From contig DATLTS010000051.1 of the NCBI GenBank assembly GCA_035533475.1, positions 1 to 64,000 of the forward strand: 64,000 nt of DNA. The letters are read 5' to 3'. Source of the stretch: Mycobacteriales bacterium (lineage in GTDB: Bacteria > Actinomycetota > Actinomycetes > DATLTS01). Shown piece after piece: positions 1 through 47,009 of this stretch; position 1 is the first letter of the stretch; the number at the start of each line of letters is the position of its first letter. A program made the translations under genes and the position numbers. The notes under the pieces are model-generated. The model did no database searches. It was not told the origin of the DNA and saw only the letters and a list, made by a program, of their open reading frames with translations.

Positions 1-1
1 T

Positions 2-181
2 CGCTGCCCGGACTGCAACCTGTTCAGCCGCCGGCTGGGAGACGGCGGCCATTGCCCCAACTGCGACGAGCCAGTGCTCGTCCAGGAGCTATTCAGCCCC
101 ATCCATCAAGCACCGTCACACACAGAGAACTTGACAGGCCCAACGAGATCCGAGACACCTTCAAGCTCCGTGACATGGTGA
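2..181 (+). pseudogene. C-terminal zinc-ribbon fragment of an unidentified protein
   Basis: The frame starting at base 2 is open from the window edge to a TGA at 179-181. Its first residues read RCPDCNLFSRRLGDGGHCPN and continue CDEPVLVQEL, so two CxxC knuckles sit about 15 residues apart, as in a small zinc ribbon. After about base 110 the reading becomes unlike a folded domain and runs into sequence that, in frame 1, belongs to a transposase. I read this as the end of a zinc-ribbon protein cut by a rearrangement. The parent family is not recognised, and the true N-terminus lies outside the window. Confidence 0.5.
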
Positions 182-1154
182 TGGTCGGGGACCGCGGAAT
201 GATCACCACCGCCCGCATCTCCCAGTTGCGGGAACTCGGTGGGTTCGGCTGGGTCACCGCCCTACGCGCCCCCGCGATCGCCGCACTGGCCGCGGATGAC
301 GGGCCGTTGCAGATGACCCTGTTCGACCAGACCAACCTCGCCGAGATCACCCACCCCGACTACCCGGGGGAGCGGCTGATCGCCTGCCGCAACCCCGCGC
401 TGGCAGACGAACGAGCCCGTAAACGCCTCGCCCTGCTCGACGCCACCGACGGTGAACTCACCACCATCGCCGCCGCCGTCGACGCCGAGCGGCTCGTCGG
501 TGCCGGGAAGATCGGGATCCGGATCGGCCAGGTCATCGGCAAGTACAAGATGGCCAAGCACTACACCCTGACCATCACTGACAACACCTTCACCTTCGCT
601 CGCGACCAAGCCGCAATCGACGCCGAGACCGCCCTCGACGGCATCTACGTGATCCGCACCAGCGTCGGTGCTGAGCAGATGACCGCCGGCCAGGTCGTGG
701 CGACCTACAAGAGCCTCAGTCACGCCGAACGTGACTTCCGGTCGCTGAAGCGCATCGACCTGGACCTGCGCCCCATCCGGCACTACACCGAGACCCGGGT
801 CCGGGCGCACGTGTTCCTCTGCACCCTCGCCGCCTACTTGGTCTGGCACCTACGCCAGACCCGGGCACCGCTGACGTTCACCGACGAGACCCGACCCGAA
901 CCGACCGACCCGGTCGCACCCGCGCGCCGCTCGGCCGCCGCGGACCGCAAGGCCGCGACCAAAACCACCAGCGACGACCTGCCCGTCCACGACTTCCCCA
1001 GCCTGCTCAACCACCTCGCGACCTGACCCGCGACCAGGTCCGGTTTCTCGCCGTCACCGACCAGCCCGTCGTCGAGCAACTCGCACTACCTACCCCCACC
1101 CAGCGACGCGCCTTCGAACTCCTCGACCGACCCATCCCGCTCAACCTCGCGTAG
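141..1154 (+). pseudogene. IS1634-type transposase remnant, 5'-truncated and frameshifted near the 3' end
   Basis: Frame 1 encodes the central and C-terminal part of an IS1634-like (IS4 superfamily) DDE transposase. Visible marks are the MVMVGDRGMIT motif holding a catalytic Asp, the block ALRAPAIAAL...LFDQTNLAEI, and the late block YKSLSHAERDFRSLK, whose Glu is the usual final acid. About the first half of a normal protein of this type is absent: sequence before about 140 is unrelated. Frame 1 stops at 1024-1026 after LLNHLAT, but the expected C-terminal continuation (LTRDQVRFLAV... up to LDRPIPLNLA) resumes at 1023 in frame 3 and stops at 1152-1154, so a one- or two-base indel lies near 1020. 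The element cannot be active. Its right end is probably within 1155-1245, but no inverted repeat can be confirmed because the left end is missing. Confidence 0.85.
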
Positions 1155-1263
1155 TCAGCACCCCCAGACCCGAACCGGCATAAGTCCAGGTCAGCGAGCT
1201 ACAACCCACCCAAGATCACGAAACTTCGGGCTAGGCTGACGCAGGTCCAGCCGAGGAGTCAGG

Positions 1264-3237
1264 GTGCCGAAAGGAAACCGCAGACCGCGGCAGCATCCTG
1301 CCGCCCGTAGGAGCACGCAACCACGTAGCCGTGTTCGCCGAGTTCCGGCAACCGCCCCCAGGCCACGGGGCTGGGAGTCCACCTGGACATCCCTCGACAG
1401 ACGGGATCTGTTCTACGCAGGTGCTGTATCCATTGCCGCTGCCGGCATCTGCCTGCCCGGCTTGAGATCATTTCCCGCACTCGGAGACGCCCCGGAGAGC
1501 GTGGCGGGCGTGGCAAGCCTGGGCATCCTGCACGCGCCAGGCTATCCGGCGTATGTGCTTCTCGGCAGGCTCGCGACACTGGTGATTCCTGCCGGTACTC
1601 TGGCGTTCCGCTTGGCCCTCTTCAGCTTGCTCTGCTCCGCGATCGCGGTTGGCGGGGTGGCGATCCTTGCCCGGTTGTCAGGGGCAGCCCGCTGGGCGAG
1701 CGTCATCGCGGCCGCGATCTTCGCTGTTGGCCCCAGCTTTCGGTTCTACTCGACCTTCGACAAATATGACGCACTCGCTTCGCTACTCCTGGTCGCCGCT
1801 CTCATCTCGCTCATGCTCTACGTTCGGGGGCCAACTGGCGGCCGTGCAGCTGCCGCCGGTGGCCTGCTCGGCCTTGGGCTATCTGCGTCGTGGCAGCTTA
1901 CGGTGCTCCTAGGCCCCGCCATCTGTCTGATCTTGTTTGTCGGACGGCGGCGGATCCGTGTGTCACACGTCTTGGTTGGCGCCTCTGCGGGCCTCCTCCC
2001 GGTTGTCGCGTGCTATGGCTTCGTCCTCGTGCGAGCAGGGGCAAACCCACCGGTAAACTGGGGCTACGCTACGGACTTTGGACGCCTGGTTCACCTCGTG
2101 ACTCTCCGGGACCTCGGTATCGGCGGTACGCCGGGTCAGGGTAAATCGACCGTCTCTCTAGGGGCGACGGCAGCACACGGCAAACTCCCCATCCTCGGTT
2201 CGAGCTTGGTCAGCTACTTCGTGGTCTTTGCTCGCGAGTTGGGGGTCTTTGGGCTTCTCCTCGGAGCGCTTGGCCTCACCCGTGGCCTGAGACGTAGAAG
2301 CTTGCCCGCAGCGGTCCTGTCCGTCGTGTTCCTGACGAATCTCTTCCTCGTGGCGCTTGTCGCCGGACCTGGATCCCACCATAAGTGGGCGATTGACCTC
2401 ATCGAGGAAGGGTTCTTGTTCGGCAACCTCGTGCCATTGGCGGCTGGTGCCGGCTTGGCGCTCACGCAAGTGGACGAGATGCTGCGTCGGTATCGCCCAG
2501 CGTGGTTCCAGGCCCGGGGACATCTCGGGCCGGCCGCCCTAGCAACAGTTGCGCTCCTCGGGATCTTCCAAGGTCTCTTGGAAAGTAGCCATGCGGCGCA
2601 AGGGCCAGACTTGGAAGCCCGTTACGCATCCACGGTCTTCAGCGAGCTCCCTCGCGACGCCGTTCTCATCGTCGTCCCCTATGAACGATCAGCGCCCTTG
2701 CTTTACCGCCAGGTGGTTGCACATCAGCGACAGGACGTGCTTGTGCTCTATTTGGATGCTTTGGGGCAGTCGTGGTATCGTGCGGAACTCAGCGCTCGTC
2801 TTCACCGGCGCCTACCTGGCTACAAGGGCAATATCATCGCCTATGCCGATGCACTGACTAGGAGTCTCCAGTCGAGCCGTCCCGTCTACCTCGACGCGCC
2901 TACGACGGTGCTCCTGGGGTCGTCGTTGAGTACCCAGCCCGTCGGGCTTCTTTCCATTGTCACGTTCGCTCCGCGGCAGAACCGCGCGGAGTTGGCCATC
3001 GTGTCGAAGGTCGTGGACGCCGCTGAGCAAAGCGCCAATATCTACGATGCTGGCTGGGCACAGTGGCCGAACACGACCGTACGTGACAGCTATGCCTACG
3101 CGGAGCTTGCCCTAGCGAAGGCGTACTCGGATATTGGTGATGTTACCGATACCGCCATTCATCTGCGTGCACTTCTGCGAATCCAACCCGACAATGCTGT
3201 GGCGCGGGATGACTTGGCTCAGCTGGGGGCAGAGTGA
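1264..3237 (+). CDS. DUF2723/TMEM260-type membrane glycosyltransferase with C-terminal repeat domain
   Basis: This 657-residue membrane protein has the DUF2723 signature near residues 74-101 (GDAPESVAG...HAPGYPAYVLLG), similar to the luminal-loop acidic motif of protein O-mannosyltransferase-like GT-C enzymes. The conserved Asp is at about residue 75. About ten hydrophobic segments follow to about residue 430. A soluble C-terminal region ends in a TPR-like helix pair (AYAELALAKAYSDIGDVTD...LLRIQPDN, about 605-650). GTG at 1264 is chosen because a GAGGAG stretch lies 6-11 bases upstream. Codon third positions look more A/T-rich than in most of the window, which hints at transfer. The family moves sugars from lipid carriers to proteins or glycans at the membrane; the substrate here is unknown. 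A decayed paralogue lies at 6295-7419. Confidence 0.8.
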   Translation: MPKGNRRPRQHPAARRSTQPRSRVRRVPATAPRPRGWESTWTSLDRRDLFYAGAVSIAAAGICLPGLRSFPALGDAPESVAGVASLGILHAPGYPAYVLLGRLATLVIPAGTLAFRLALFSLLCSAIAVGGVAILARLSGAARWASVIAAAIFAVGPSFRFYSTFDKYDALASLLLVAALISLMLYVRGPTGGRAAAAGGLLGLGLSASWQLTVLLGPAICLILFVGRRRIRVSHVLVGASAGLLPVVACYGFVLVRAGANPPVNWGYATDFGRLVHLVTLRDLGIGGTPGQGKSTVSLGATAAHGKLPILGSSLVSYFVVFARELGVFGLLLGALGLTRGLRRRSLPAAVLSVVFLTNLFLVALVAGPGSHHKWAIDLIEEGFLFGNLVPLAAGAGLALTQVDEMLRRYRPAWFQARGHLGPAALATVALLGIFQGLLESSHAAQGPDLEARYASTVFSELPRDAVLIVVPYERSAPLLYRQVVAHQRQDVLVLYLDALGQSWYRAELSARLHRRLPGYKGNIIAYADALTRSLQSSRPVYLDAPTTVLLGSSLSTQPVGLLSIVTFAPRQNRAELAIVSKVVDAAEQSANIYDAGWAQWPNTTVRDSYAYAELALAKAYSDIGDVTDTAIHLRALLRIQPDNAVARDDLAQLGAE

Positions 3238-3586
3238 AAGGGACCAAGCCGGTGACCCCTCGAGTCGCCCTATTGGGCGCAAGCCGCCTACCGGCTCTCC
3301 GAATACGTCAGAGGTAGCCCACAGACATCTTGAATCTCTCCCGACCGTTACCCGACTGACACCACGTTGTCCGAGTCCGCACTCTGCACTCTGCACTAGC
3401 CCACATACACCTGGTTGAGCTCACGACCAATGACAGGCCTCACCATGCCAGCTTCTCAGTAGCACCGTCCGCCCTCTTCACGCCTCGGCGGCCGCGGATG
3501 TCGTGTGCGGGCGTGCGCTAGCGAATCTGTTGGGCTGCTGTTGGACCAACGCTGCGTCGGCCCGACGGGTGTGGTGATCGAGCCGG
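3238..3586. other. 349-base stretch without a recognisable gene
   Basis: This gap lies between the convergent ends of the DUF2723 gene and the GT2 gene. Small open frames here overlap the end of the upstream gene and look like no known protein. No clear hairpin with a T-tract was found. In the other two minus-strand GT2 genes of this region the equivalent downstream position holds a sulfotransferase gene; here there is none. Confidence 0.5.
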
Positions 3587-4507
3587 TCACCGCTTCCGAC
3601 GGCATCGGGCCCGCAAGGCGCTGAAGTCCAGTCGGGCGCCTTCGGCTAGCAGGCCGGCGCCCCAGCAGCCGAGGACGGCTACGACCCCGGGAAACAGTCT
3701 GACGGCCCGGGCCAATGAAGTCCGATCCCAGAGTGCGACCCGAGCGTAGAGTGAAATGATCCGGCCGAGGACGGCAAGTGGCGCCAGCGGGGTGTAGCGC
3801 ACGAGTGGGCGCCACTTGTACCCCCCGCGCCGCCCCAGCCGCGCGGTGAACCGTCCGAATGAAGCCTGGTGGCGCGCTACCGCCAGCCAACCTGTCCGAT
3901 TCTGATGAGAAACGATAGCTGTCGGGGCGAAGCGGAACCGACCGTGTGTGCGAGCGGCGACAGTGAACCACGTGTCCTCGCCACCACCGAGGTCCTCTGG
4001 GAACGGCCCCAGCTCGTCCCACAGCGTGCGGGGCACCAGCAGGTTGCATGTAGCTCCGTGCCACAGCGTGCGAGGCGGTCGCTGCGGATGCAGGTCGAGG
4101 AACTCAACAAGGTATTCGACCGTTCCAGCGGCACTACTCGGCGTCCCATTGACCACCGACCCGGCGATGCAGTCGGTTCCCTGCGAAGCCTGGGTTAGCT
4201 CTGCCAACCAGTCGCGTGAGACGAAAACGTCTGCGTCGGTGAACGCAAGGAGCCGTCCGCGGCTCACCTCGACGGCCCGGTTGCGCGCTTCGGCGGCGCG
4301 TAGCCGTGGAACGATGCGCAACACGCGCAGCCGCGGGTGACTCGGAAGGGTCGGCAACTCCGACTCGGCGTCGGCGCTGGCGCACACGATCACTTCGAAT
4401 GGCTCGGCACCTCGCTGATCGAGCAGTCGCTCGACGCACGCCGACAGTGTCGCCATCCCGTAGGCAGGGATGATCACGGAGGTAATCGGGAGTTGATCGG
4501 CCGCCAT
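3587..4507 (-). CDS. GT2 family glycosyltransferase
   Basis: A 306-residue GT-A-fold family 2 glycosyltransferase. The N-terminus ITSVIIPAYG is the first strand. The nucleotide/metal site is FTDADV at about residues 92-97 (DAD as DXD). GGGEDTWF near residue 178 supplies the usual ED acceptor-side pair. Two hydrophobic C-terminal segments (about 243-290) suggest membrane association. The start is ATG at 4507, in the first bases after an IS1380 remnant that ends about 15 bases upstream. Any native promoter or upstream operon partner has probably been displaced. It likely adds one sugar to the surface glycan; donor and acceptor are unknown. Confidence 0.85.
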   Translation of the reverse strand: MAADQLPITSVIIPAYGMATLSACVERLLDQRGAEPFEVIVCASADAESELPTLPSHPRLRVLRIVPRLRAAEARNRAVEVSRGRLLAFTDADVFVSRDWLAELTQASQGTDCIAGSVVNGTPSSAAGTVEYLVEFLDLHPQRPPRTLWHGATCNLLVPRTLWDELGPFPEDLGGGEDTWFTVAARTHGRFRFAPTAIVSHQNRTGWLAVARHQASFGRFTARLGRRGGYKWRPLVRYTPLAPLAVLGRIISLYARVALWDRTSLARAVRLFPGVVAVLGCWGAGLLAEGARLDFSALRARCRRKR

Positions 4508-4521
4508 CGAGGAACCCTACG

Positions 4522-6060
4522 TCAGCATGTGCCTGCCGTCCCTCTGCCCGCGAGGGTGCGGCTAGTCATGAGCTTGTCGCGCACCCCGGGTCCCCGCGCT
4601 TCACGCCAAGCTGGCCCGGTGGTCGGTCGACCCCCGTCGTCGCTGAGCCCGGATTCACTGGCTGAATGCGATGGTGGTGTTTGACGCCCGCGAAGACGGT
4701 GTGTCGGCGCTGCCGGTGTGATTGGGCGCGCCGGTTCGGCCGGTCTGCCGGCGTCTCCGGTCCTCGGGTAGTGGGGGCGGGTGGCGATGTTCAGCAGCGG
4801 GCGGCCAGCTCGGCGATCGCCGCAAGCGCTGAGCGTAACGATGCCGCCCATGGCCAGTTCTCGGGTGCTCTCCAGTGCTGGCGACGGGCAGAGTGCACCA
4901 GCCGCGCGGGCATTGGTGAACAGCCGCCGGCGCAGGGTGGGGGCGGTGGCCCGGTCCATCTCGGGGCCGGCGAGTGAGCCGACTGCGTGTCCGAGGTTGT
5001 GCGCCATTACGGCCAGGGCGAGCCAGGCGGCGTTGGCCATGAACGGCCCGACGGCAGGTGCGCGAGCCCGGCGCGCTTCAACTCGGCGATGGTCTGTTCG
5101 ACGACGGCGTGACGGCGATGGTCGGCCGCGACCTCGACGAGTACGCCGACCCGGTCGGTGACGAACGCGCGGTTGTCGTAGGTCGCGAATAGCGCGAGCT
5201 GGCTGCCCGGTGTCGGGTGGCCCCGGCCCACGACCAGCCGCAGCGCGCGGGTGTGCCGGGTGCCGGCGAAGCAGGTGTAGGTGGTCTCGGCGACATCGGC
5301 GCCGGAGACTTTCGGGGTGGACAGCCAGTACGGGATCGGGGTCCACGCCGCATCCGGGATCGCGCCGATCGCCCGGCGGATGGCCGGGTTCTGCCGCACG
5401 GTCACCGGGAACCGCACGTCGAAAACGGGCCGCGGTGGCCAGGGTCGCCTTGGAGTAGGACGCCGAGTCGGCCCGCACCGTGAGCTGGCCGGTCACGCCA
5501 GCGTGGCGGATCCGGCTGATCGTCTCGGTGAGGAAACCCTTCGCGCAGCGAGCCGAGCCGGCCGACCCGCCACGCAGCCGGGCGAAGACCACGTCCCCGG
5601 TCTCGGCACAGGTCGCGAACAGTGGGTGGTAGCCGCGGACCTTCGTATAGCCGAAACCGACGCGATCGTCGAGTCCAGGTCCAGCGTCATCGGCACGGCC
5701 AGATCGGGCGGAGCCGGCTCCGGCGGCTCCGCAGCGGGCCAGCAACTCGCGGGAGACCGCGTCGAGCTGCCGCACGTTGCACCATTGGAACGCCCGCAGC
5801 CACGACCCGACCGTGGACGGGGCCCGGGTGTCGTCGAACAGCTCGCCGGTCGCGCCGGCCCGCAGCATCGACCCGATCACCGTGAGCGCTTTCGCGCCGC
5901 CGTTCCCGCCGTCGCGGGCCAGCCGCAGCCGGTCATCGAGCAGCTCGGCCAGCCCAAGTCGCTGGGCCAACGCGGCCGCTGGGAGCAGCCCCGCCGACGG
6001 CACCAGATTCGACTCGTCGCGGCTCGCCGACACTCGGGTCAGATCGTGAGATGCTCGCAT
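4522..6060 (-). pseudogene. IS1380-type transposase remnant with several frameshifts
   Basis: Translation from about 6060 downward begins like an IS1380 transposase (LVPSAGLLPAAALAQRLGLAELL; LRAGATGELFDDTRAPSTVG; WLRAFQWCNVRQLDAVSREL). The segment with the first catalytic Asp, MPMTLDLDSTIASV, lies in another frame (up to about 5696). The next blocks, GYTKVRGYHPLFATCAETG and LTVRADSASYSK with its Asp, return to the first frame. The block YDNRAF...VVEQTIAELKRAGLAHLPSGR lies in a third frame (5007-5417). MANAAWLALAVMAHNLGHAVG is back in the first frame. At least four indels are therefore needed to rebuild one protein. The last 130 or so residues of the long frame are low-complexity and unlikely to be native. 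Terminal inverted repeats were not resolved. Confidence 0.85.
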
Positions 6061-6294
6061 CTATCAGGTGCCTTCTCGGCTCGCGGACTCTGTGGCGTAG
6101 ACACCCACATCGTCCCAGCTCAGAGGGCATTTGATCTTCTTGCCGCGCCGCGCTTTGCTAACTCCAATCGGTGGATCAGGGTTAAGGAATGCCAATGCCG
6201 ATCTCCCCTCCGCGACCGCGTTGCCGTGCGATGGTGAGCCCCTGGGTCCGGCGGATGACCCACCCCCGGCGCTCGACCTCGAATACTCTGCGGG
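6061..6294. other. Non-coding remnant between the IS1380 remnant and the decayed DUF2723 copy
   Basis: No convincing protein or RNA was seen. The stretch directly upstream of the transposase start should contain one end of the IS element, but I could not pair it with a matching inverted repeat beyond 4522. The sequence is less GC-rich around 6110-6190 than its flanks. Confidence 0.4.
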
Positions 6295-7419
6295 ATGGAG
6301 CCGGCCCCAACGACGACCAGCAGCGCGTCGCCGGTACCCACCTCGGCGACCCCTGGGACCTCTTCGGTGCGCACAGTGTCGCCCCGAGAGGTTCGCCGCC
6401 CTGGTCACCTCGGCAGCGCGCCGCGGGACGGCTTCGGTAGGCTGTCGGCCGACGCGCGGGTCCGGGGCCTCGGGAGGACGGCGATTGGCCATTCGGCCGG
6501 GCCGGCCGGGCCAGCGTGCGACGCCAAGTTCATCTCGCCGGGAGTTGCTATTTGTCCGCACGTGTTTGCCGCCGGTAGGGCTGCGACGGGAGATCCCTTG
6601 TTAGCGATCAATGTCGCGACCGCCCCCCACCCGGCTGGTCTGAGGTCATTACCTGACCTTGGTGCCGCCCCGCAAAGCGTCGCAGGGGTCGCCAGTCTGG
6701 ATGAGCTGCTCGCGCCGGGCTACCCTGCGCGCGTCCCTATGCCCAAGGTGGTGGGCATGGCGCTGTCGGTCGCATCCGCGCCGTTCCGCCTCAAGCCACT
6801 CAGCCTTGTCGGTACCGCTCTGGCGGTTGCCGGAACACTGCTGATCGCCCGATTTGTGGTTGCCCTCGGCTGGGCGGCAGCCGTACTCGCCGTCGGCCTG
6901 TGGCCGCGGTTCTACGCGGAGTTGGCCAAACCCAACATACTGGCCAGGCTGTCGCGGCACCGGGGGGGAATCTCGCACCGGTTGGGATTGGGGCTTCCCT
7001 CCTTTCAGTCCAATGTGGTCATTTGCTCTGGCGCGGTGGCGAGGAGCGTCGGGCGTATCCGCCCAGTCTACCTCGACGGTGCCGCCACGGCGTTGTTGGG
7101 CAGCACGCTGAATACCGAGCCGGTGGGCCTGCTGTCTGTGATGACCTCGGAGGGCCACCCGACCGTGACGGCACTGTCCTCGGTGACCGCCACCCTGACC
7201 GCCGCCGAGCGGTCGGCGCAGTTGACCTCCAGGCTGTGGGACCGCTGGCCGAGCACTGTCGTCCGCGACGAATACGCATTCGCCGAGCTGGCGCTGGCCA
7301 AGGCCTACGACGACGCTGGCGACAAGCCCGACGTTGTCGCTCACTTGCGCGCGGTGTTGCGGATTCAGCCGAGCAACTCCACTGCCTTGCGGATCCTTTC
7401 GCAACTGGGCGCCGGGTGA
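6295..7419 (+). pseudogene. Internally deleted paralogue of the DUF2723 membrane glycosyltransferase
   Basis: The open frame (374 codons) aligns to the gene at 1264-3237 only in two blocks. Block one (about 6640-7020) carries GLRSLPDLGAAPQSVAGVASL and LAPGYPAR, matching residues 67-220 of the full gene. Block two (7066-7419) carries RPVYLDGAATALLGS and AFAELALAKAYDDAGD, matching residues 539-657. Roughly 320 residues of membrane core are missing between them. The conserved GDA of the full gene reads GAA here, so the acidic residue is lost. The first 115 codons have no counterpart and are low-complexity; no start codon can be defended. The frame still overlaps the next gene by four bases (GTGA), which suggests the intact ancestor was the first gene of that operon. 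Confidence 0.75.
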
Positions 7420-9218
7420 CCGAGCGGACCGGCGGTGAGCTCCCCCCCGTGCGCCTCACAGCCGCCGACCGCCGTCACAGCGTCCCCCCGGTCGTTAGCG
7501 TGGTCGTGGTAGCCGGTGGGCGTAACGACCTACTGGCGCGCTGTGTCGCGAGCCTGCGCCAGCAACGCGAGGCGCCAGCCTGGGAACTCATCCTCTGTGC
7601 GGATTCGACTGTGGCGCGGGGTCAGCGCGTGGACGGGATGTTCCGGACCGGGGACGTGACGCTCGTGCCAGGCCGAACCCCGGCGGGGCTGCGCAACCAG
7701 GTCCTGCACCGCGCCCGGGGAGAGCTGCTGCTCTTCCTCGACGACGACGCGACATTGCCCCCGGACTACCTGGCTCGACTCGCTGAGCTGGCCGGGTCGC
7801 ACCCGGAGGCAGGCGTCTTCGGCGGCCCGAACGTGACCCCGTTCGGCAGTTCGAGGTTTGAGGTGACCCAGGGCGCGGTGCTCAGCTCGTTGGTGGGCGC
7901 CGGGCCGGTCCGACGCCGCTATGGGCCGCACCCGGCCACGGAGGCGGACGAGCGTTACTTCACTCTGTGCAACCTGGCGGTCCGTCGCGAGGTCATGACC
8001 CGGTTCGACGACGATCTCGTGTGCGCCGAAGAGAACGAATTGCTTGGGCGGCTGCGGGCGAGCGGGGTTCGGATGCGCTACGACCCGCAGCTCTCCAGCG
8101 GTCACCACCGGCGGCCCGATCGGCGGGGTTTCGCGGCGCAGATGTGGAAGTACGGGCGCGGACGTGGCCAGCTCGCGGTCCGCTCGCCGCGCACCCTGCG
8201 TCCGGCCCACCTGGCACCGAGTCTGGCAGTTGCCTATCTCGCCGCGGCGATAGTCGGGGGAGCCTTCGAGCCGCTGCTGCTGCTTCCGGTCGCCGGATAC
8301 CTGGCTGCCCTGCTGGGCCAAGCTGCGTGGATCTCGCGCACCCTCGCCCGGCCCGGTGCAGCGCCGGAGGCGTTCGGCCTCCTGCTGGTGCTGCACGTCT
8401 GCTACGGGTGCGGTCTCTTCGCGGGCCTGGCAGAGCCGCGGCGGGGGCCTGCGCGGGGTGCGGGGCTCGCCGTCTTTCGGCTGCTGTGGGTTCTCGTGGT
8501 CCGGCAACTCAGGCTGCGGTCCAAGCGGGCGTTCATCGGGATCGTCTGGCCGGTGCTCGCCCCCCTGGTGTTGCTGGCGCTGTATGTGTTCGTCTTCCGA
8601 ACCGTTTTCCACATCCCGATCCGCAACTACCCGGTATTCCTCTTCGCCGGCCTGCTGCCGTGGACTTTCCTCGCCCAGTCTCTGGGCGCGGCGGTGATCT
8701 CGCTGTCCACCGAACCGGAACTGATCCGGCGCGCCCGGTTTCCCTACGTGCTGCTCCCGATGGCGAGCGTCACGGCGACGTTCATGTACTTCGTCGCGAC
8801 CGTCACCGGGTTCGTCGTGTACCTCGCCGCTCGTGGCGAGCTGGTGTGGTCCGTCCTGCCCGGGCTGCTGCTGCCGCTGACCGCGCTTTACGTATTCGTC
8901 GGTGCATTGTCGACGGCACTCGGCCTCATCGACGTCTACAACCGTGATCTCAGGCAGGTCCTCGGCAATCTGCTGACGATCTGGTTCTTTCTCGTTCCGA
9001 TCGTCTACACCCAGCGGGCATTGACCAGTCGTCTGCTGGTGTTCCGTTCGGTCGACCCGGTTAACCTGATCGTGGGCGAGTTCCGCGACGTGCTGTATTA
9101 CGGTCAGCTGTCTCGGCCGGCGCACGACATCGAACTCATCGGCATCTGCTTTGGCTTCGCGCTGATCGTGCTCCGGGTCGGCGCCGGCTTGTCCGACCGG
9201 CTACCCAAGGACGTCTAA
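7416..9218 (+). CDS. GT2 glycosyltransferase fused to ABC-2 (Wzm/TagG-type) polysaccharide export permease
   Basis: A 600-residue fusion. Residues 27-250 are a GT2 domain: first strand VVSVVVVAG, DXD site LFLDDDA (107-112), acceptor-side AEENEL (204-209). Residues about 266-340 form the two or three hydrophobic segments common at GT2 C-termini. A short basic linker (PRRGPARGAG) leads to residues 351-600, a complete ABC-2 permease: amphipathic RLLWVLVVRQLRLRSK, the RAFIGIVWPVLAPL start, LFAGLLPWTFLAQSL, and six predicted helices. GTG at 7416 gives a GTGA overlap with the upstream frame. The partner ATPase starts three bases after the stop. The protein probably exports a lipid-linked glycan while its own cytosolic GT2 domain acts on the same glycan, for example by capping or completing it before transport; that coupling is inference. 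Confidence 0.85.
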   Translation: MTERTGGELPPVRLTAADRRHSVPPVVSVVVVAGGRNDLLARCVASLRQQREAPAWELILCADSTVARGQRVDGMFRTGDVTLVPGRTPAGLRNQVLHRARGELLLFLDDDATLPPDYLARLAELAGSHPEAGVFGGPNVTPFGSSRFEVTQGAVLSSLVGAGPVRRRYGPHPATEADERYFTLCNLAVRREVMTRFDDDLVCAEENELLGRLRASGVRMRYDPQLSSGHHRRPDRRGFAAQMWKYGRGRGQLAVRSPRTLRPAHLAPSLAVAYLAAAIVGGAFEPLLLLPVAGYLAALLGQAAWISRTLARPGAAPEAFGLLLVLHVCYGCGLFAGLAEPRRGPARGAGLAVFRLLWVLVVRQLRLRSKRAFIGIVWPVLAPLVLLALYVFVFRTVFHIPIRNYPVFLFAGLLPWTFLAQSLGAAVISLSTEPELIRRARFPYVLLPMASVTATFMYFVATVTGFVVYLAARGELVWSVLPGLLLPLTALYVFVGALSTALGLIDVYNRDLRQVLGNLLTIWFFLVPIVYTQRALTSRLLVFRSVDPVNLIVGEFRDVLYYGQLSRPAHDIELIGICFGFALIVLRVGAGLSDRLPKDV

Positions 9219-9221
9219 GAC

Positions 9222-9902
9222 ATGTCGGTCCGGCTCGAGGATGTTTGGGTCGATTACCGTCCCCGGCGGGGTCGGCACCGCGACGCGCGCCGGTGGGCAC
9301 TACGGGGCGTCAACCTCGCCCTTTCGCCCGGATGTCGCGTCGGCGTCATCGGGGGCAATGGCGCCGGTAAGACCACGCTGCTGCGGACCGTCACCGGAGT
9401 GTACCGGCCGACCCGGGGGGTGGCCCGGATTTCCGGGCGGGCCGCCGGGATTTGCGATCTCGGACTCGGCGTGCAGCGAGACCTGTCCGGCCTCGAATGT
9501 CTCGCCGTCTGGGCCGCCGTCGACGGCATGTCCGCAGCCCGCTGGCGACGCCAACGGGCGGAAATTGTCGACGCCACGTGTCTGACGACGGACGTCCTCG
9601 AACAGTCGGTGTACACCTACTCGCTGGGGATGACCCTGCGTTTGCAACTCGCCCTCGCCTTGGTGAACCGTCCGGCGGTGCTGGCGGTCGACGAGGTGCT
9701 GTCCGCCGCGGACGCCGGCTATCGCGACCAGGCGCTGGATCAGCTCACCGCGCTGGCGGTCGAGGGCACCGCCGTTGTCTTTGCTTCGCACGATCTTGGC
9801 CTCATCGCCGCGAACACCGACGAGGTGACCGTCCTCCGAGATGGGGCCGTCGACTTCGTCGGCCCCCCCGGCGATGCGCTCGCCCGGTACCCGCCGCCAT
9901 AA
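9222..9902 (+). CDS. ABC transporter ATPase, Wzt/TagH type, polysaccharide export
   Basis: A 226-residue nucleotide-binding subunit for the permease encoded just upstream (three-base gap, same operon). Walker A is GGNGAGKTT (44-52), the signature motif YSLGMTLR (133-140), Walker B AVLAVDE (152-158), and the H-loop ASHD (His190). The signature is unusual: related export ATPases normally read YSSGM followed by R/K-rich residues. The protein ends soon after the H-loop, so it has no C-terminal carbohydrate-recognition domain of the kind found in Wzt proteins that select capped O-antigen. It therefore resembles the short TagH/KpsT class. It energises export of the glycan at the cytoplasmic membrane. 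Confidence 0.87.
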   Translation: MSVRLEDVWVDYRPRRGRHRDARRWALRGVNLALSPGCRVGVIGGNGAGKTTLLRTVTGVYRPTRGVARISGRAAGICDLGLGVQRDLSGLECLAVWAAVDGMSAARWRRQRAEIVDATCLTTDVLEQSVYTYSLGMTLRLQLALALVNRPAVLAVDEVLSAADAGYRDQALDQLTALAVEGTAVVFASHDLGLIAANTDEVTVLRDGAVDFVGPPGDALARYPPP

Positions 9903-9929
9903 CCGGAGGCGGCCGTAACTGACCGACGG

Positions 9930-9946
9930 GCCGACCATCGGTCGGC
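9930..9946 (+). other. Inverted repeat after the ABC ATPase gene
   Basis: GCCGACC, a three-base loop ATC, then GGTCGGC form a perfect 7-bp hairpin 28 bases after the stop. No T-tract follows. It could be a weak terminator or mRNA-end stabiliser separating the export operon from the sulfotransferase gene, which appears to have its own promoter. Confidence 0.35.
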
Positions 9947-10007
9947 GATAGGTGCCAGCCCCGGGTCGCGCCGCGGGCCCGCGCATCGATCGGCGGCGAG
10001 CGGTTCG

Positions 10008-10013
10008 TATCCT
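10008..10013 (+). promoter_or_regulatory. Candidate -10 box for a leaderless sulfotransferase mRNA
   Basis: TATCCT ends six bases before the ATG at 10020. That spacing puts the transcription start on or next to the A of the ATG. No Shine-Dalgarno sequence is present in the intervening bases. Leaderless messages are common in actinomycetes. The -35 region is not obvious. Confidence 0.45.
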
Positions 10014-10019
10014 GGGCCA

Positions 10020-11099
10020 ATGACCGGCCCGAGCGCGCTGAGTCGCGCTGGAGCGAGGCTCCCCCCACGGTGGCGCGCGGCTGCGCGCGGGCGGGTTACC
10101 CGCCTTGTGCAGACCCTGGCCGAGGAATTGGATATCGAGCCGGCGGCCCAGGTGCGGTCCGGCCTGCTCGAGCCGATCTTGGTTCGCATGCCATCGGGCC
10201 GAGTAGGAAGCACCCTGGTCATGCAGCTTCTGGGCAGTTCCCCGGACATATTCTTCGACAAGGTGTATCCCTTCGAGGACCGTTGCTTGGCCAACCTCCT
10301 GTACTACCTTTCCCCGCTTCGCGCGCCGTTGCCACCGCGAACCACGTGGTGGACGGAAGCTCCGGACCGGGTCGTGTGGATCGACCCCGCGGAGTTTGGC
10401 TTCGATCCGCAGGGGCAGCCGCTGAACTACGAGAACCTCGGAGTGGATCGCGCCGATGTGCATCTGGGTGCGGTCCGGGGGGTATGGCAGGCGTTCTCAG
10501 CCGCAGCCGAGCGGGCGTCCGGACGGCCGTTGCGCTACTACGCCGAGAAGTATTCCGGGTACGCCGAGGTGCTGGTCGAGGCCGGCATCCCGTTCCGGGT
10601 GCTCGACATAGTGCGCGACCCACGGGACATATGGGCGTCCATCCAGGCGTTCGACGCCAAGCGCGGCTACTACGGCTTCGGCCGGCGTGAGGGTCAGTCC
10701 GACGAGGACTACCTACGCGCCTACGCCCGCTCCATCCGACTTCGGCTGGACGAGCTGGCCGCGCCCGTACCGGGCCTGCCCGCAGTCCTGCTCCGCTATG
10801 AGGATTTGATTGCGGACCTCGCGGGGGAGACCCATCGGGTCGGCCGCTGGCTCGGGCTGCCACTCGACCCCGGCGTCGTTGACGTCAATCTGGACAGTCT
10901 CCGCCACCACCTGACCACCGAAACCGCTGCCGATTCTGTGGGCCGTTGGCGCCGTGACCTTGCCCCGGCCGTCGTGGACTTCCTCGAGAGTGAACTCGGC
11001 GCTCATCTTGACCGGCTCGGCTACCTCCGAGCCGGCGGTACACCGAAGGAACCAGAACAGCCCGTCGGGGCCGGCCCTGCCGACGGTCATTCGCGTTGA
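10020..11099 (+). CDS. Sulfotransferase family protein (first of three)
   Basis: A 359-residue PAPS-dependent sulfotransferase-like protein. The 5'-phosphosulfate loop is RMPSGRVGSTLV (56-67), a variant of the usual R-S-G-T-T loop. The 3'-phosphate region is LDIVRDPRDIWAS (195-207). RYEDLI near residue 261 is the late conserved strand. It should transfer sulfate from PAPS to a hydroxyl of a sugar or lipid in the cytosol. It differs strongly from the other two sulfotransferases here, carrying a longer insert between the loop and the RDP motif. The last 25 residues are low-complexity. It follows the ABC export genes but seems to be transcribed from its own promoter. The acceptor is unknown. Confidence 0.75.
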   Translation: MTGPSALSRAGARLPPRWRAAARGRVTRLVQTLAEELDIEPAAQVRSGLLEPILVRMPSGRVGSTLVMQLLGSSPDIFFDKVYPFEDRCLANLLYYLSPLRAPLPPRTTWWTEAPDRVVWIDPAEFGFDPQGQPLNYENLGVDRADVHLGAVRGVWQAFSAAAERASGRPLRYYAEKYSGYAEVLVEAGIPFRVLDIVRDPRDIWASIQAFDAKRGYYGFGRREGQSDEDYLRAYARSIRLRLDELAAPVPGLPAVLLRYEDLIADLAGETHRVGRWLGLPLDPGVVDVNLDSLRHHLTTETAADSVGRWRRDLAPAVVDFLESELGAHLDRLGYLRAGGTPKEPEQPVGAGPADGHSR

Positions 11100-11203
11100 C
11101 GGGGGAGCCAGGCGCGTCTCGTCCCTATCCGAGTTGCGCCCGGTGACCCGAAGTCGCGATGCCGCTGAGCGTCGAACGCCTTGATTCGCACGGAGGCCTG
11201 CCC

Positions 11204-12253
11204 TCACGACGGGACAGTGATCCGTTTCCTCGAGGGCCGGGGAACCACGTGGCGCTTCGTCGTGCCTAGCGTCGCCACCCGGCTACCGCCCAACCGCCGG
11301 CCCATCCCCCTGAGGGCGCCACCGAGGATAGGGGCCACGAAGGTCGTCCACAGATCCACGGCGTCGCCGGCGCGCAAGCTGAGCAATTCGTAGGCGGGTC
11401 GCACGGTGAGGATGCCTCCGACTCGCTCGTACCCGGTGGCGTCCATCTCGCGTCCGGCGATGGCCTCTATCAGGGCGATGTCGCCAGCTTCAAGGCCCGA
11501 TCGCCAGGTGCGAAGGTCTTGGCGGGGCGGCCCGGTTGCGGACATGTGGTGGCGGTCGGGGAGTAGGTCGCGCTGCCGCCCGTAGTCGAGCATCGTCGGG
11601 GAGTATTCAAGTCGGGCATGTTCACAGACCCGACGCAGTTCCACTTCCGGGTCGGCCACCAATCGTTCGTAGCGCACCTCGAGCACCCGGGGTCCAAAGC
11701 GATCCAGCGCAGTTAGCCCGGCGCGGATCGCGCGGGCCCAATCGGCAGCCTCCCCGGCGATACCCCGGCGCTTCCAGGGCTGCAGCGCCCCGGACATGCA
11801 CACCGCTCGCGGGTCGCGGATGACGTGCACGAACCTGCTTGACGGAAACTGGCTTGCGAGCCAAGAGAAGTGTTGGACGTGCAACGGGGTCTTGTCCGCG
11901 CTCCGTGACTTGCCCTTCGAGGCGGCGTATGCGGCGAAAAGCAAACGGAGCAAGTCGGCATACCAGATTGGTTTGTTGGCCGCGAGGAGTTCCTCGACGA
12001 AGGAGACGTCGAGGCGCCACTGGGTAAAAAAGCGGTTCCTTTGGATCAGCTGCCAAGCGATCCAAGGGTCGTCAACAGCATCGATCGACCGGAGCTGGTT
12101 GTACACGTTGTAGATGAAGTAACTCTCCCCGGGAACCGCCAATTTGGGGTGCGCCGTCAGTAGGTTGCGAAGCAACGTGGTGCCGGAGCGTCCGGCGCCC
12201 CCGATGAACAGCACTGGATCCAGCGTCGGGCGCAGCTCGATGGCTCCATTCAT
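11204..12253 (-). CDS. Sulfotransferase (second of three), coupled to an upstream GT2 gene
   Basis: A 349-residue sulfotransferase. The 5'-phosphosulfate-binding loop is GGAGRSGTTLLRN (18-30), the general-acid area PGESYF (41-46), DKTP (120-123), the 3'-phosphate motif HVIRDPRAVCMS (143-154), and RYERLVADPE near 195. ATG at 12253 is selected because it overlaps the stop of the upstream GT2-like gene by four bases (ATGA); a longer upstream frame exists but lies inside that gene. The protein is clearly paralogous to the one at 15125-16081 (shared GTTL, PES-F, DKTP, RYERL/RLERL-ADP spacing). It probably sulfates the sugar added by its coupled glycosyltransferase, which is inference from the pairing. 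Confidence 0.87.
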   Translation of the reverse strand: MNGAIELRPTLDPVLFIGGAGRSGTTLLRNLLTAHPKLAVPGESYFIYNVYNQLRSIDAVDDPWIAWQLIQRNRFFTQWRLDVSFVEELLAANKPIWYADLLRLLFAAYAASKGKSRSADKTPLHVQHFSWLASQFPSSRFVHVIRDPRAVCMSGALQPWKRRGIAGEAADWARAIRAGLTALDRFGPRVLEVRYERLVADPEVELRRVCEHARLEYSPTMLDYGRQRDLLPDRHHMSATGPPRQDLRTWRSGLEAGDIALIEAIAGREMDATGYERVGGILTVRPAYELLSLRAGDAVDLWTTFVAPILGGALRGMGRRLGGSRVATLGTTKRHVVPRPSRKRITVPS

Positions 12254-13713
12254 CGAGCGCTGACCGATTCGTCGTCCAGCAGCGCGAAGATGGGTTCCGG
12301 CCATGTTCGGGGGTGCCGGAAGATGTCCTGCACTGTGACCTGGAGAGCGGGCCCGGGGTGGGCCACGCTCTTCGTCCCCACGGTTAGCACCGGCACCGAG
12401 CCGAGCCGGGGCAGGATCGCGTCGAGGCTGTCTTCCCCGAGCGCGATCGCGAACCGCTTTCGGCCGTGAAGCCATGCTTCGATACCCAGCAGGTGAAGAT
12501 ATGCCTCCCCCCACGTGGCGGGCCTCTCTCGCTCAAGGCGAACAGCCGCTAACCGAGGCTCGATACCCCACCCCCTCCGGCGGGCCAGTCGAGTGACGGC
12601 GAGTGACCAGGGGGCCGGCTCGGCCCAGTGTCGCGCGGCATGGGCGTCGACACCGACCGGAGCGGCCGAGACATCGGCCAGTCGTAGAGCGGTGAGCACC
12701 AGGGCGAATAACCAGCGGTTGGCGCCGGTGACGACCAAGCCCGGGCTAGTCGGAGGCGGCGTTGCGATGCTCTGTGCGTCGCCGTCGGGAGGCAACACCA
12801 GCGGGGGCCTGGATCGCAGCCCGAGGAGCAGGTCGATCCAGGCCCGGAACATACCGGCGGCGGCGGCCACCCACACCATGCTGGGAAGGACCGCCGAGGC
12901 CAGCGCTCCAGCCGGTTTGGGCGCGTTCTCACCTTGTCGCGCCAGGAGGGCGGGACGGAGCAGCACCCTCATCGGGAGGGCCGTCAGTTCGCTCCGCAGC
13001 CGGCTGCGGCTGCCACGGACAACGGCATCATGAAAGGCAAATCGCCGATACCGCGCCCGCATTGCCAGCTCGGCCCGACCGGCGGCGCCAACTGCCGCCA
13101 CGATATCGCGCACCCTCGCCTCGGTGGACAGGATCACCGGGGCATCGGGTAGTTGTGTCAGTCGGTGGCCGGCCAGGTGCGCACGAAAACACCAATCCAT
13201 GCCGTTTTGGTCCGGGAGCTGTTCATCGAAGCCCCGCAGCTCCTCGAAGATCGACCGCAAGACGGCCAGATTGACATTCGGGGACCAGGGTAGAAAACCG
13301 TTTCGTCCGGTCGGATCAGGACCGCACCAGGACGCGACCAGCGACGACAATGAGGCGGCAGTTGCGGAAGACCCGACGTCTCCGGCGACGATGACGGCGC
13401 CACGTTCGAAGGCAGCGGTGAGCGCGGCCAACCATCCGGCGGCCGGGCGGGCCGGCTGACCCAGAAACACCAGTCGTTCTCCGCGGGCCTCGCGCGCGCC
13501 AAGGTTGAGGCTGGCCGCTCGGCCACGCCAGCCCGCGGTTTCGACTACCCGCATGTCCTGCCGTCCGGCCTCGCCGGCCGGCGCCGTCGGTATCTCGCCC
13601 ACGACTACGATCAACTCGTCGCGCGGCCCCAGTTGCTTCGCCAATGCCGCCGTGCAACCCTCGAGGTCCCCCCAAGTGGGGGAAGTCACGATCACACTCA
13701 AGGAGACTGGCAC
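12250..13713 (-). CDS. Degenerate GT2-like protein with an unknown C-terminal domain
   Basis: A 487-residue protein. Residues 3-245 have the layout of a GT2 domain (SLSVIVTSPTW first strand; RAASLNLGAREARGERLVFLG; PWSPNVNLAVLRS; NGMDWCFR). The DXD metal site is missing: where FLDDD or FLDAD is expected the protein reads FLGQPARP (84-90). The C-terminal half (about 300-487) includes a hydrophobic stretch and a domain containing LVVTGANRW and FAIALGEDSLDAILPRL that I do not recognise. GTG at 13713 is chosen because upstream in-frame codons run through the divergent GT4 gene starting at 13756. The 42 bases between them must hold divergent promoters. It is coupled by ATGA to the downstream sulfotransferase. 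It may be a metal-independent or inactive transferase. Confidence 0.7.
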   Translation of the reverse strand: MPVSLSVIVTSPTWGDLEGCTAALAKQLGPRDELIVVVGEIPTAPAGEAGRQDMRVVETAGWRGRAASLNLGAREARGERLVFLGQPARPAAGWLAALTAAFERGAVIVAGDVGSSATAASLSSLVASWCGPDPTGRNGFLPWSPNVNLAVLRSIFEELRGFDEQLPDQNGMDWCFRAHLAGHRLTQLPDAPVILSTEARVRDIVAAVGAAGRAELAMRARYRRFAFHDAVVRGSRSRLRSELTALPMRVLLRPALLARQGENAPKPAGALASAVLPSMVWVAAAAGMFRAWIDLLLGLRSRPPLVLPPDGDAQSIATPPPTSPGLVVTGANRWLFALVLTALRLADVSAAPVGVDAHAARHWAEPAPWSLAVTRLARRRGWGIEPRLAAVRLERERPATWGEAYLHLLGIEAWLHGRKRFAIALGEDSLDAILPRLGSVPVLTVGTKSVAHPGPALQVTVQDIFRHPRTWPEPIFALLDDESVSAR

Positions 13714-13755
13714 GGCCGGTATGCTACTTGCGCGCAGCTGACTGCAAGGGGTGCG

Positions 13756-14976
13756 ATGCGGCTTCTCCTCACTGAGGACCGCCCCGCGCCGACTGGGGGC
13801 GGCGCCATATGCGGGCTGGAGTTCGGAGCCGGCTTGGCTGATCGTGGACATGTGCTGGACCTGCTCTACACCGAGCCGGGTGAGTTCTTGACCGACTACG
13901 AACGGTGGTGCCGATCTGTCCGTCGAGTCGGCAGCTATCGAATTCAGCCGCGAGCCCCGTTCTCGACTTCGCTCGGCTTCGCTACAACCGTCGCTGCCGG
14001 ACTCCGCCTTCGCAGCGATGTTGTGTACCTGCATCGGTACCGTCACATCTTGTATGGCTCCGTTCTGGCTCGAGCCAAACGAATCCCTCTGGTGTGTCAT
14101 CTGCATGCCCCGCTACCCCGGCGTTTCGACGGACACTCGATTGCGGGTTTGCCCTCGGCGACCCGTTTCATCGCTGTCTCCGAGCACGTCAAGCGGGTCT
14201 GGGGGGAGGCTGGTCTCGTGGCGGACCGAATCGACGTCGTCTACAACGGTGTCGATCCAGCGCACTACCTGCCGCCCGATGGATCGGACACGCTAGAACG
14301 GCGCCGCGGTCGGCTCGGCCTGGTCGACGTTAGGGCCGACGATCTGGTGGTCGCCTACTGCGGACGGCTCGACCGCGAGAAGGGCCTCGAAGTTCTCATC
14401 GGCGCCGTCAACCTTCTCCCACACATGCGGATACACCTAGTGATCATCGGCGGCCCTACGTGGCATCCGACCCCGGAAGCGGCAGACCGTTATGTCGGCG
14501 AGCTTCGGCGCGGGGCGCCGAGCGCCAGGTTTCTGGGGCGCCATCTCGACGTCGTACCGCTGCTCCAGGCAGTCGACGTCCTCGTGCTCCCAAGTGTCAA
14601 CGAAGAACCATTCGGCCGGGTGCTCATCGAGGCGATGTCATGTGGTGTTCCCGCGCTGGGTTCCCGAACTGGTGGAATCCCAGAGGTGCTCTCGGGTGAG
14701 TTCTCCCGGTGGCTGTTCCGACCGGGAGACATGGGGGAACTCGCACAGAAACTCTCGGTTCTGAACGGTTGGCGAACCCGGTGGCCCCGACTCGCAGGGG
14801 CCTGCCGGACCCATGTGGACAGCCACTTCACGCTAACGCGAACGCTAGATGGGATCGAAGCAACCCTGGGTTCGGCGACATCGACGCCGGGCTCGCTTCG
14901 CCGCGGTGCGTCGCATTCGCGACTCGCCCGTTGGGGAAGGGGTCTCGGCCCGCGTAGTCGCGCCCGTGACCGATGA
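13756..14976 (+). CDS. GT4 family glycosyltransferase
   Basis: A 406-residue GT-B-fold enzyme. The N-terminal half has a glycine-rich loop PTGGGAICGLEFGAGLADRG (about residues 12-31, given here only as its start). CHLHAPLPRR and FIAVSEHVKRVW are typical acceptor-side marks. The donor-binding half has VVAYCGRLDREKGLEVLIGA and the EPFGRVLIEAMSCGVPALG motif, whose two Glu residues bind the nucleotide sugar. ATG at 13756 has a purine-rich AAGGGG stretch about 6 bases upstream. It adds a sugar to the glycan core from an NDP-sugar; the specific sugar cannot be read from sequence. It converges with the sulfotransferase at 15125. Confidence 0.88.
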   Translation: MRLLLTEDRPAPTGGGAICGLEFGAGLADRGHVLDLLYTEPGEFLTDYERWCRSVRRVGSYRIQPRAPFSTSLGFATTVAAGLRLRSDVVYLHRYRHILYGSVLARAKRIPLVCHLHAPLPRRFDGHSIAGLPSATRFIAVSEHVKRVWGEAGLVADRIDVVYNGVDPAHYLPPDGSDTLERRRGRLGLVDVRADDLVVAYCGRLDREKGLEVLIGAVNLLPHMRIHLVIIGGPTWHPTPEAADRYVGELRRGAPSARFLGRHLDVVPLLQAVDVLVLPSVNEEPFGRVLIEAMSCGVPALGSRTGGIPEVLSGEFSRWLFRPGDMGELAQKLSVLNGWRTRWPRLAGACRTHVDSHFTLTRTLDGIEATLGSATSTPGSLRRGASHSRLARWGRGLGPRSRARDR

Positions 14977-15124
14977 CGACGACCGTCTCGATGGCAGGGT
15001 TGAGACGCGCCGGGAGCCGGTCCTGGGGCTCGACTTCCCGGGACCTAGATCGCCCTCGGTCTGGAGCGCCATTTCGCATTTCGGCTCGACGGCGAGGGAC
15101 GCCGAGGTTTGGCCCGCCCAGGTG

Positions 15125-16081
15125 TCAGGTATCTGCTCGCTGGGGGTGCCGCTGGTCGCTCAGGAAGAGTCGCACCCGCGGCGGCAGGTCCGCGAGCCAG
15201 CGGCTCCGGGCCGCCAGCCGGAGCGCTACGGCGGGGCGCCGAGTGTCGTAGCCGAGCTGTTGCAACATCGGCCAGCAGGCGGCCTCGACCTGGGCAGCCA
15301 CCGAGGACGGGAGCCCGTCGCTCCAGGAACGGAGCCGTGCGGTCGGGGGCTCTGCGATGTGCGACAGGTGCGGGGGCAGGGGCTCAGCGCTGCTCAGCCC
15401 CATGCGGCCTCTGGAGCGGGTGGGGTACGCGAGCATCGCCGGGTCGTAGGACTCGCCGAGGAAGGCGCATACGCTGCCAAGCTCGGCCTGCGGGTCGGCG
15501 ATCAGCCGTTCGAGGCGAAGCTCGAGGTATCGGTCGGGTCCGAGCCGGGTCCCGGCCTCCCGGCCGACCCGGACGTAGCGTCGCCACCAGAACGCTGCCG
15601 ACACTGGGCTTCCCGGCCACCAGTCGCGTTCCGAGACCGATACGGCGACCTCGCGCCCGTCGCGAACGACGTGGATGAACTGCGCATCGGGAAAGAGCTG
15701 GGCCAGCTCAGGCAAGAAGTGGACGTAGCCAGGCGTCTTGTCGCCCCATCGCGGCTTCCCGTACGCCGAGGCGTACGCGTCGAATACGGCCCGGACCACG
15801 TCGGGATAGCTGGCGGCTCGGGCTCGAGTCACAAACGCTCGAGCATCGTCGGGATCGAGATCCCAGGCGCGGAACCGGGTATGCGCGAGGATGCGCTCCA
15901 ACGCCAGTTCCGGTCGATGCATCAGCCGGAGCCGTCGGTAGGCGAGCCGGACGATGAAGTGCGATTCCGGGGGGATCGCCAGGCGCGGATGACTGTCGAG
16001 CATCAGCCGGGTCAGCGTGGTCCCGGACCTCGGCGCCCCGACGACGAAGAAGGGAGTCGTCCTCCCTGTTGATCCGCTCAC
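15125..16081 (-). CDS. Sulfotransferase (third of three), coupled to an upstream GT2 gene
   Basis: A 318-residue PAPS-dependent sulfotransferase. The 5'-phosphosulfate loop is VGAPRSGTTLTR (14-25), then PPESHF (37-42), WGDKTPGY (112-119), the 3'-phosphate motif HVVRDGREVAVS (137-148) and RLERLIADPQ. The GTG start at 16081 overlaps the upstream GT2 stop by four bases (GTGA), so translation is coupled. It is a paralogue of the 11204-12253 protein and sits in the same arrangement. A DWW-GSP motif after the RDG region resembles sulfotransferases acting on glycans and lipids, but the acceptor is not known. Confidence 0.88.
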   Translation of the reverse strand: MSGSTGRTTPFFVVGAPRSGTTLTRLMLDSHPRLAIPPESHFIVRLAYRRLRLMHRPELALERILAHTRFRAWDLDPDDARAFVTRARAASYPDVVRAVFDAYASAYGKPRWGDKTPGYVHFLPELAQLFPDAQFIHVVRDGREVAVSVSERDWWPGSPVSAAFWWRRYVRVGREAGTRLGPDRYLELRLERLIADPQAELGSVCAFLGESYDPAMLAYPTRSRGRMGLSSAEPLPPHLSHIAEPPTARLRSWSDGLPSSVAAQVEAACWPMLQQLGYDTRRPAVALRLAARSRWLADLPPRVRLFLSDQRHPQRADT

Positions 16082-17124
16082 GCCCCGGAGGGGCCCAATG
16101 CTGCCCCGGACTCAGCCCGGGCCCGCTGTCGCCTGGTCAGCAGCCGGAAAAGCACGCGGTTGCCCAAGCTCTCCACCGGAAACAGTGTGACGGCGAGGAG
16201 GGCGATCGCGAGGCGCTCGCCCACCAGCCTGATCACCGCGCGGGGGAGCCATTCATACGACAGCGACCGGTGGTACCGGACCCAGATGCGATGGTCGTAC
16301 CGGGAGCGGAACCCCCACTTCGCGGCGAAGTGCCGCCCATCCGCCACGTTCCACGCTTCGCTCCAGCGCCACATGAAGAACGGGAGATCGGTCCGGGTCA
16401 CCGGCGGCGGCTGAAGGTAGCTGACCACGGCCGAGGGCTCCGACCAGATCTCGGCCCCCGCGCGGGCGGCCGAAAGGCACAGGTCGACGTGGTCGAGCGA
16501 GCTCCGGAACCCCTCGTCCAGGCCGCCGATCGAGCGCACCAAGGCACTCGACACGAGCATGCAGTGGAACTCGACGTGCTCGCACCGGTAGCGGTCGCGG
16601 GGCAGGTCCGGATCTTCCAGCGGCCGTCCCTCGTTCTGCAGGCGGTACATGTAGCTTCGGCGCCCGGCTCTTCCGGTGCTGCGGAACAGGCCGCTCGTCG
16701 TGTGCACCCGGTGGCCCTCCCGCCGGGTGTGGATCCCGTAGAGCGGACCAACCACATCGGCGCCGGTCTCCTCGGCGCAGGCGACGAGCCGTTCGAGCCA
16801 GCCGGGAAACGCGATCACATCGTTGTCAAGAAAGCACACATGGCTGCTTCTCACCATGCCGAGCGCCAGATTGCGGGCCTCGTTCTGGGTGAGGAAATGC
16901 TCGCGGCGCAGGTGCCGAAAACCGTAGACGGCCGACCGCTCCGCCAAGAAGTTGCGGATCGGAAGCGGTGATCCGCCGTCGACGTAGATGAACTCGAACG
17001 GCATGACGGTGTTCTCGTAGACGCTGTCCAACGAGGCTTGCGTCGGGCTGAACCGCTCCCGCTGGGTCATCACGATCGTGACCGTCGGCGATGGGGCAGC
17101 GTTGGCGTCGCGCGATGGCGTCAC
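16078..17124 (-). CDS. GT2 family glycosyltransferase
   Basis: A 348-residue GT2 enzyme. First strand TVTIVMTQRERF, sugar-nucleotide loop QNEARNLALGM (80-90), DXD site CFLDNDV (97-103), and GLDEGFRSSLDHVDLC as the acceptor-side acid region. Its C-terminal part has a short hydrophobic segment (about 295-325). GTG at 17124 is chosen because frames further upstream lack the family start and a Shine-Dalgarno sequence; other starts are possible. The gene pairs with the downstream sulfotransferase through a GTGA overlap. The likely job is addition of a residue that is then sulfated. Confidence 0.85.
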   Translation of the reverse strand: MTPSRDANAAPSPTVTIVMTQRERFSPTQASLDSVYENTVMPFEFIYVDGGSPLPIRNFLAERSAVYGFRHLRREHFLTQNEARNLALGMVRSSHVCFLDNDVIAFPGWLERLVACAEETGADVVGPLYGIHTRREGHRVHTTSGLFRSTGRAGRRSYMYRLQNEGRPLEDPDLPRDRYRCEHVEFHCMLVSSALVRSIGGLDEGFRSSLDHVDLCLSAARAGAEIWSEPSAVVSYLQPPPVTRTDLPFFMWRWSEAWNVADGRHFAAKWGFRSRYDHRIWVRYHRSLSYEWLPRAVIRLVGERLAIALLAVTLFPVESLGNRVLFRLLTRRQRARAESGAALGPSGA

Positions 17125-17197
17125 CGGGCAAATGTAGTCAACCCTGGGTCGCCTCAGCATTCGTGAGCGGCCTGGGTGCAAAGGGCGGCCGGGGGGG

Positions 17198-17244: not shown

Positions 17245-17335
17245 GTCCCGGCGGCGGCAGGAACACGGCTACCGGTGCGGAAGAATGTCCACGGATAGAG
17301 TGAAACCGGTCATCGGCGAGCGGGAGGACGACACC

Positions 17336-47007: not shown

Positions 47008-47009
47008 CC

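Follow-up and report, generated by a model that had tools for sequence, protein, structure and literature searches.

Synthesis and export in described systems

In the A. aeolicus WzmWzt transporter, an interface (IF) helix lies at the NBD/TMD interface and continues by way of the LG-loop into TM1, and the gate helix, next to that loop, has been put forward as the point of substrate entry (PMC6379404). For the K. pneumoniae O2a pathway, where export works without a carbohydrate-binding module (CBM), extension and export were reported to be obligatorily coupled, with chain length reportedly set by the transporter:synthesis-complex stoichiometry (PMC11231755); in mycobacteria, contact of GlfT2 with Wzm-Wzt has been proposed to set the size of the galactan (PMC10951656). 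The case for coupling of synthesis to export has so far been built on stoichiometry and on proposed contacts of this sort (PMC11231755, PMC10951656). The window considered here -- the whole stretch of 64,000 nucleotides that was analysed -- carries a gene in which a GT2 glycosyltransferase and a Wzm permease form one reading frame. The initial annotation knew of no well-described case of this order, and searches of open-access literature likewise turned up no description of a GT2-Wzm fusion.

The fused gene and its split relatives

7416-9218, + strand: GT2-Wzm fusion gene P0001, 600 aa, identified from the ORF, Pfam, NCBIfam and the full-length homologue L041:5932-7740
8433-8453, + strand: linker EPRRGPA, residues 340-346, with pLDDT about 61 in the block 341-350

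The gene opens with GTG at 7416 and closes with a stop at 9216-9218; its frame, read over 600 codons, has zero internal stops, and the single continuous frame originally claimed for 7416-9218 is thus open throughout. The start overlaps, as GTGA, the stop of the upstream ORF at 7419, and third-position GC is high in one unchanged frame on both sides of the fusion junction. A stop or start missed between 8400 and 8470 had been named as something that would undo the claim -- no stop and no plausible start is found there, and the fusion gene contains no in-frame ATG, GTG or TTG between 8388 and 8496. Absence of the fusion from all relatives had been named as well; L041 (QHCF01000169, an Acidimicrobiales MAG) carries a full-length homologue, a second, independent fusion that is 55% identical over residues 25-600 and is followed directly by Wzt. 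By the frame, by both domains and by L041, the order of GT2 and then permease within one gene is real; this is a genuine gene fusion.

The GT and Wzm are separate genes in L042, L081 and L082, where stop and start overlap by 4 nt as ATGA or GTGA, and in L080, where the gene order is GT-Wzt-Wzm. These four sets have the same three genes as the window, with homologous halves that are 45-51% identical to its own, but their halves are separate proteins, with the 4-nt overlap or the other order, and their GT has an extra C-terminal tail. L066 (G509) has the GT with no cognate permease nearby, though a different permease is found nearby. Positions 1510-4369 of L015, from a same-class genome, hold distant GT2, Wzm and Wzt genes, adjacent and in the same gene order.

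The 4-nt overlap of the split relatives puts the two halves close together and in different frames, as would be needed if a frameshift or misassembly had merged two overlapping genes here. Against this, two independent MAGs carry the fusion, a start codon for a separate permease is absent, and the junction is not simply one base off. From the enzyme's HxxYGxG motif to the V-x-R-x-L-R motif of the permease the distance is 102 nt in the window and 111 nt in L041, both 0 mod 3, versus 185, 149 and 179 nt, all 2 mod 3, in three split gene pairs; the fused junctions are shorter by 38-83 nt. On the strength of the second MAG and the junction lengths the frameshift artefact was rejected, and merging by error can be given almost no credence.

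It is also very improbable that the fused chain is cut by a protease or that a non-standard internal start frees the permease. Between the domains, model confidence is lowest in the linker, and a GTG at 8496 is in frame, within the IF helix of the permease half; a start there, however, would cost more than half of that helix, no other start codon is in frame from 8388 onward to that point, and the fused gene of L041 likewise has no in-frame ATG, GTG or TTG between 6844 and 7012. Since both fused genes lack a start codon from the enzyme's last helix to the middle of the IF helix, a separate standard permease product is not expected.

The glycosyltransferase half

7485-8105, + strand: GT-A (GT2) catalytic domain, residues 24-230, from Pfam PF00535/PF13641 and the AlphaFold2 (AF2) model
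7740-7748, + strand: DDD metal/nucleotide-sugar motif, residues 109-111, invariant in 7 aligned relatives
8028-8036, + strand: EEN motif, residues 205-207, invariant in the alignment of relatives
8121-8183, + strand: interface-like helix FAAQMWKYGRGRGQ, residues 236-256, from AF2
8202-8432, + strand: three hydrophobic enzyme helices, residues 263-282, 286-309 and 315-339, from AF2

The Pfam GT2 domain (PF00535) is detected at residues 28-149 with 51.3 bits, above the cut-off of 23.3, and DDD at 109-111 supplies the DxD-type metal motif of GT2 (GT-A) enzymes. By analogy, EEN at 205-207 would stand where GT2 enzymes usually have their acceptor/base motif. Q242, Y246, G247, G249 and R250 of the interface-like helix are invariant among the aligned relatives. 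In Foldseek, the GT half of the AF2 model matches PcManGT, AvpGT, hyaluronan synthase and BcsA, while the NCBIfam GlfT models gave no match to this half. The initial annotation described a GT2 domain with its DDD site and, directly after it, a short basic linker; the site and the short linker stand, but three hydrophobic helices before the linker had been missed.

These helices break parity: the GT domain is cytosolic and Wzm has to start in the cytosol, so that an even number must cross, yet three lie in between. One of the three should therefore be re-entrant or superficial. The third, 315-339, in which the HxxYGxG motif sits, is perhaps a re-entrant or surface helix, which would restore parity; positive charge is found on both its flanks, in the loop 310-314 and after 339 (there is none in the loop 283-285). 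The fusion thereby limits how this GT2 class can be arranged in the membrane, since its C-terminus must be cytosolic in order to join Wzm, and a re-entrant or surface third helix becomes a prediction for the whole class.

The permease half and the Wzt ATPase

8454-8522, + strand: Wzm N-terminal IF helix, residues 347-369, from AF2, compared with PMC6379404
8523-9215, + strand: Wzm permease core, including I374-G375, W378, P383 and D511, from PDB matches, AF2 and motifs taken from PMC6379404
9222-9902, + strand: Wzt ATPase without a CBM, 226 aa, from PF00005 (64 bits), NF050108 and alignment

Pfam ABC2_membrane (PF01061) lies at residues 356-557 with 19.4 bits, below the cut-off of 26.9, which the split homologue of L081 exceeds with 37.6 bits; NCBIfam Wzm/RfbD (NF050109), at residues 357-539 with E 2.6e-9, reaches 37 of 380 bits, far under its equivalog cut-off. 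Despite the low Pfam score, the Wzm/TagG-type permease originally proposed is borne out by PDB sequence matches of residues 354-592 to TarG and A. aeolicus Wzm (E 6e-9 to 1e-8) and by the fold. The AF2 model of the fusion (42 alignment rows, mean pLDDT 89.4, and a pTM of 0.67, at which the placement of the two halves relative to each other is not fixed by the model) matches WzmWzt in Foldseek with a TM of 0.79-0.87 by target, the whole target being covered. The Wzm fold with its N-terminal IF helix (347-369) is accompanied by I374-G375 as a variant of the L-G of the LG-loop, by W378 and P383 at the right spacing, and by the TM5 Asp; the Asp of NRDLR is present in every aligned permease family member.

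The ATG of Wzt is at 9222, 3 nt past the end of the fusion gene. NCBIfam NF050108 gives it 133 of 400 bits, below the equivalog cut-off; Walker A (GGNGAGKTT), Walker B (LAVDEVL) and the H-loop (SHD) are all present, and an Arg-rich insert between the first strands appears, from the sequence, to sit at the gate-helix position. The extended signature, YSLGMTLRLQL, differs at three positions from the O-antigen/teichoic acid exporter consensus Y-S-S/T-G-M-x-x-R/K-L-A/G-F and keeps the core YSxGMxxRL; its counterpart in L041 is YSAGMMLRLML. Both ATPases (9222-9902 and L041:7741-8493) have moved away from the extended signature and D-loop region that are mostly conserved in the split systems.

The C-terminal CBM of the CBM-type terminated ABC export pathway is absent from Wzt, whose 226 aa end after the nucleotide-binding domain. 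This lack would suit a GT half that had become a catalytically dead sensor and had taken over the checking of the glycan from the absent module; yet DDD, EEN and many residues around them do not vary, stand-alone enzymes included, and such a sensor seems far-fetched.

Origin and spread of the fusion

Trees of Wzt and of the three proteins concatenated each join the two fused systems with 100/99, and Wzm alone is compatible with that grouping (p-AU 0.54). The GT tree alone separates the pair; a tree holding them together is 7.4 log units worse and is not rejected (p-AU 0.12). The best reading of these trees is probably a single fusion event. The wider spread of the split arrangement suggests that it is the ancestral state, and as the fused genes are shorter from enzyme to permease and in frame, the fusion was presumably made by deletion, with a net loss of roughly 40-80 nt if split genes came first; such a deletion would have removed the GT C-terminal tail, the GT stop and the permease start.

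The fusion is rare, with two fused sequences known, in two lineages. Neither the genomes sampled from the window's class (395) nor those from its phylum (396, plus an overlapping repeat) showed another, and among 397 genomes from the order to which L041 and L042 belong the family was found in five, 1 fused and 4 split; these counts are lower bounds, the top candidates per genome having been scored and the pattern scan needing near-exact peptides. The source genome has no second fusion (long frames exist at C27 and C48, but these are no GT fusions), and nowhere in the plasmid records is 80% of the query covered.

52-1026: transposase gene
4522-6060: transposase gene

G+C is lower over the window's first 20 kb than in the rest of contig C51 (0.679 versus 0.73). 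In a check of the contig for misbinning, 20-84 kb agreed with the genome in tetranucleotide pattern and the first 20 kb agreed less well. Judging from the low G+C, the weaker tetranucleotide fit and the nearby transposase genes, the locus has likely arrived horizontally, and positions 1-20000 of the window are likely an acquired glycan island.

Neighbouring genes

3587-4507, - strand: second, separate GT2, from Pfam

Separate minus-strand GT2 genes resembling this one also lie near other family members (L041 8534-9550, L042 4958-5953). The ORF at 6295-7419 is a shortened, diverged relative (about 50% aa) of the TMEM260-like transferase gene at 1264-3237, with the middle missing, and a transposase lies between the two. 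Beside the exporter are three Sulfotransfer_3 genes, at 10020-11099 (+), 11204-12514 (-) and 15125-16081 (-), the second with a weak resemblance to NoeE; sulfation of a lipid or of the glycan that is exported is possible. Farther along are three long ORFs, each with a large N-terminal part without domain assignment: 25395-27401 (668 aa, Methyltransf_33), 34010-36832 (940 aa, GT4) and 45483-48839 (1118 aa, GT4 and methyltransferase). In DNA of such high G+C, their starts may have been over-called.

Proposed role of the fusion

The reading we favour, at a probability of roughly 0.6, is that a membrane-anchored GT2 and the IF helix of Wzm are joined in a single polypeptide within an exporter that holds synthesis and export together at 1:1. 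Two fused chains, presumably dimerizing, and two Wzt would make a CBM-less exporter bearing two glycosyltransferases. On the cytosolic face, a polyprenyl-linked glycan would receive sugar from the enzyme, which the link of about 7 residues to the IF helix should put beside the gate-helix/LG-loop entrance, where proximity at 1:1 would couple synthesis and export -- in covalent form, the kind of coupling proposed for CBM-less O2a export and for mycobacterial galactan. The initial annotation, too, had suggested that the fusion would couple glycan completion to export; the enzyme might prime, extend or terminate the glycan. Being covalent and natural, such a link would settle which enzyme touches the exporter, in what ratio and near which entrance, and the fusion offers a defined construct for structure work and cut-linker tests.

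A real fusion could instead be a mere tether, fixing co-expression, insertion and 1:1 numbers of an existing complex with no mechanistic hand-over. The 4-nt overlap of the split relatives is already a common sign of translational coupling, L080 has its Wzt gene between the halves, and the L066 enzyme, with no cognate permease nearby, can evidently dispense with the link. The diverged extended signature in the Wzt of the fused pair, on the other hand, hints at altered function, and a tether alone is possible but rather unlikely. More doubtful is the idea of an ATP-driven pathway, part synthase and part ABC exporter, in which the growing chain passes directly from the fused enzyme that extends it into the permease channel; if true, each export cycle would be tied to sugar addition without terminator or CBM.

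Comparison with known systems

The fusion is a variant of the ABC-dependent glycan pathway and not a new kind of system. With A. aeolicus WzmWzt and TarGH it has in common the Wzm fold, IF helix, LG-loop variant and W and P positions, and the window's Wzt likewise appears to have the Arg-rich insert at the gate-helix position; unlike the fusion, those permeases have no enzyme attached, and A. aeolicus Wzt has a carbohydrate-binding domain that the window's Wzt lacks. The best NCBIfam matches are the galactan exporter models (NF050108 for Wzt, NF050109 for the permease), and a GT-exporter interaction has been proposed for the mycobacterial GlfT1/GlfT2 and Wzm-Wzt system too (PMC10951656), but its proteins are separate and the window scores far under the equivalog cut-offs. 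The Klebsiella O2a ABC pathway is CBM-less like the window's Wzt, with extension coupled to export (PMC11231755), though by a protein complex and not covalently as would be so in the fusion. Finally, hyaluronan and cellulose synthases align with the GT half and its membrane helices (TM by query 0.60 to 8smm and 9b8v); in these the chain moves through the enzyme's own membrane channel, whereas the fusion has an ATP-driven permease attached.
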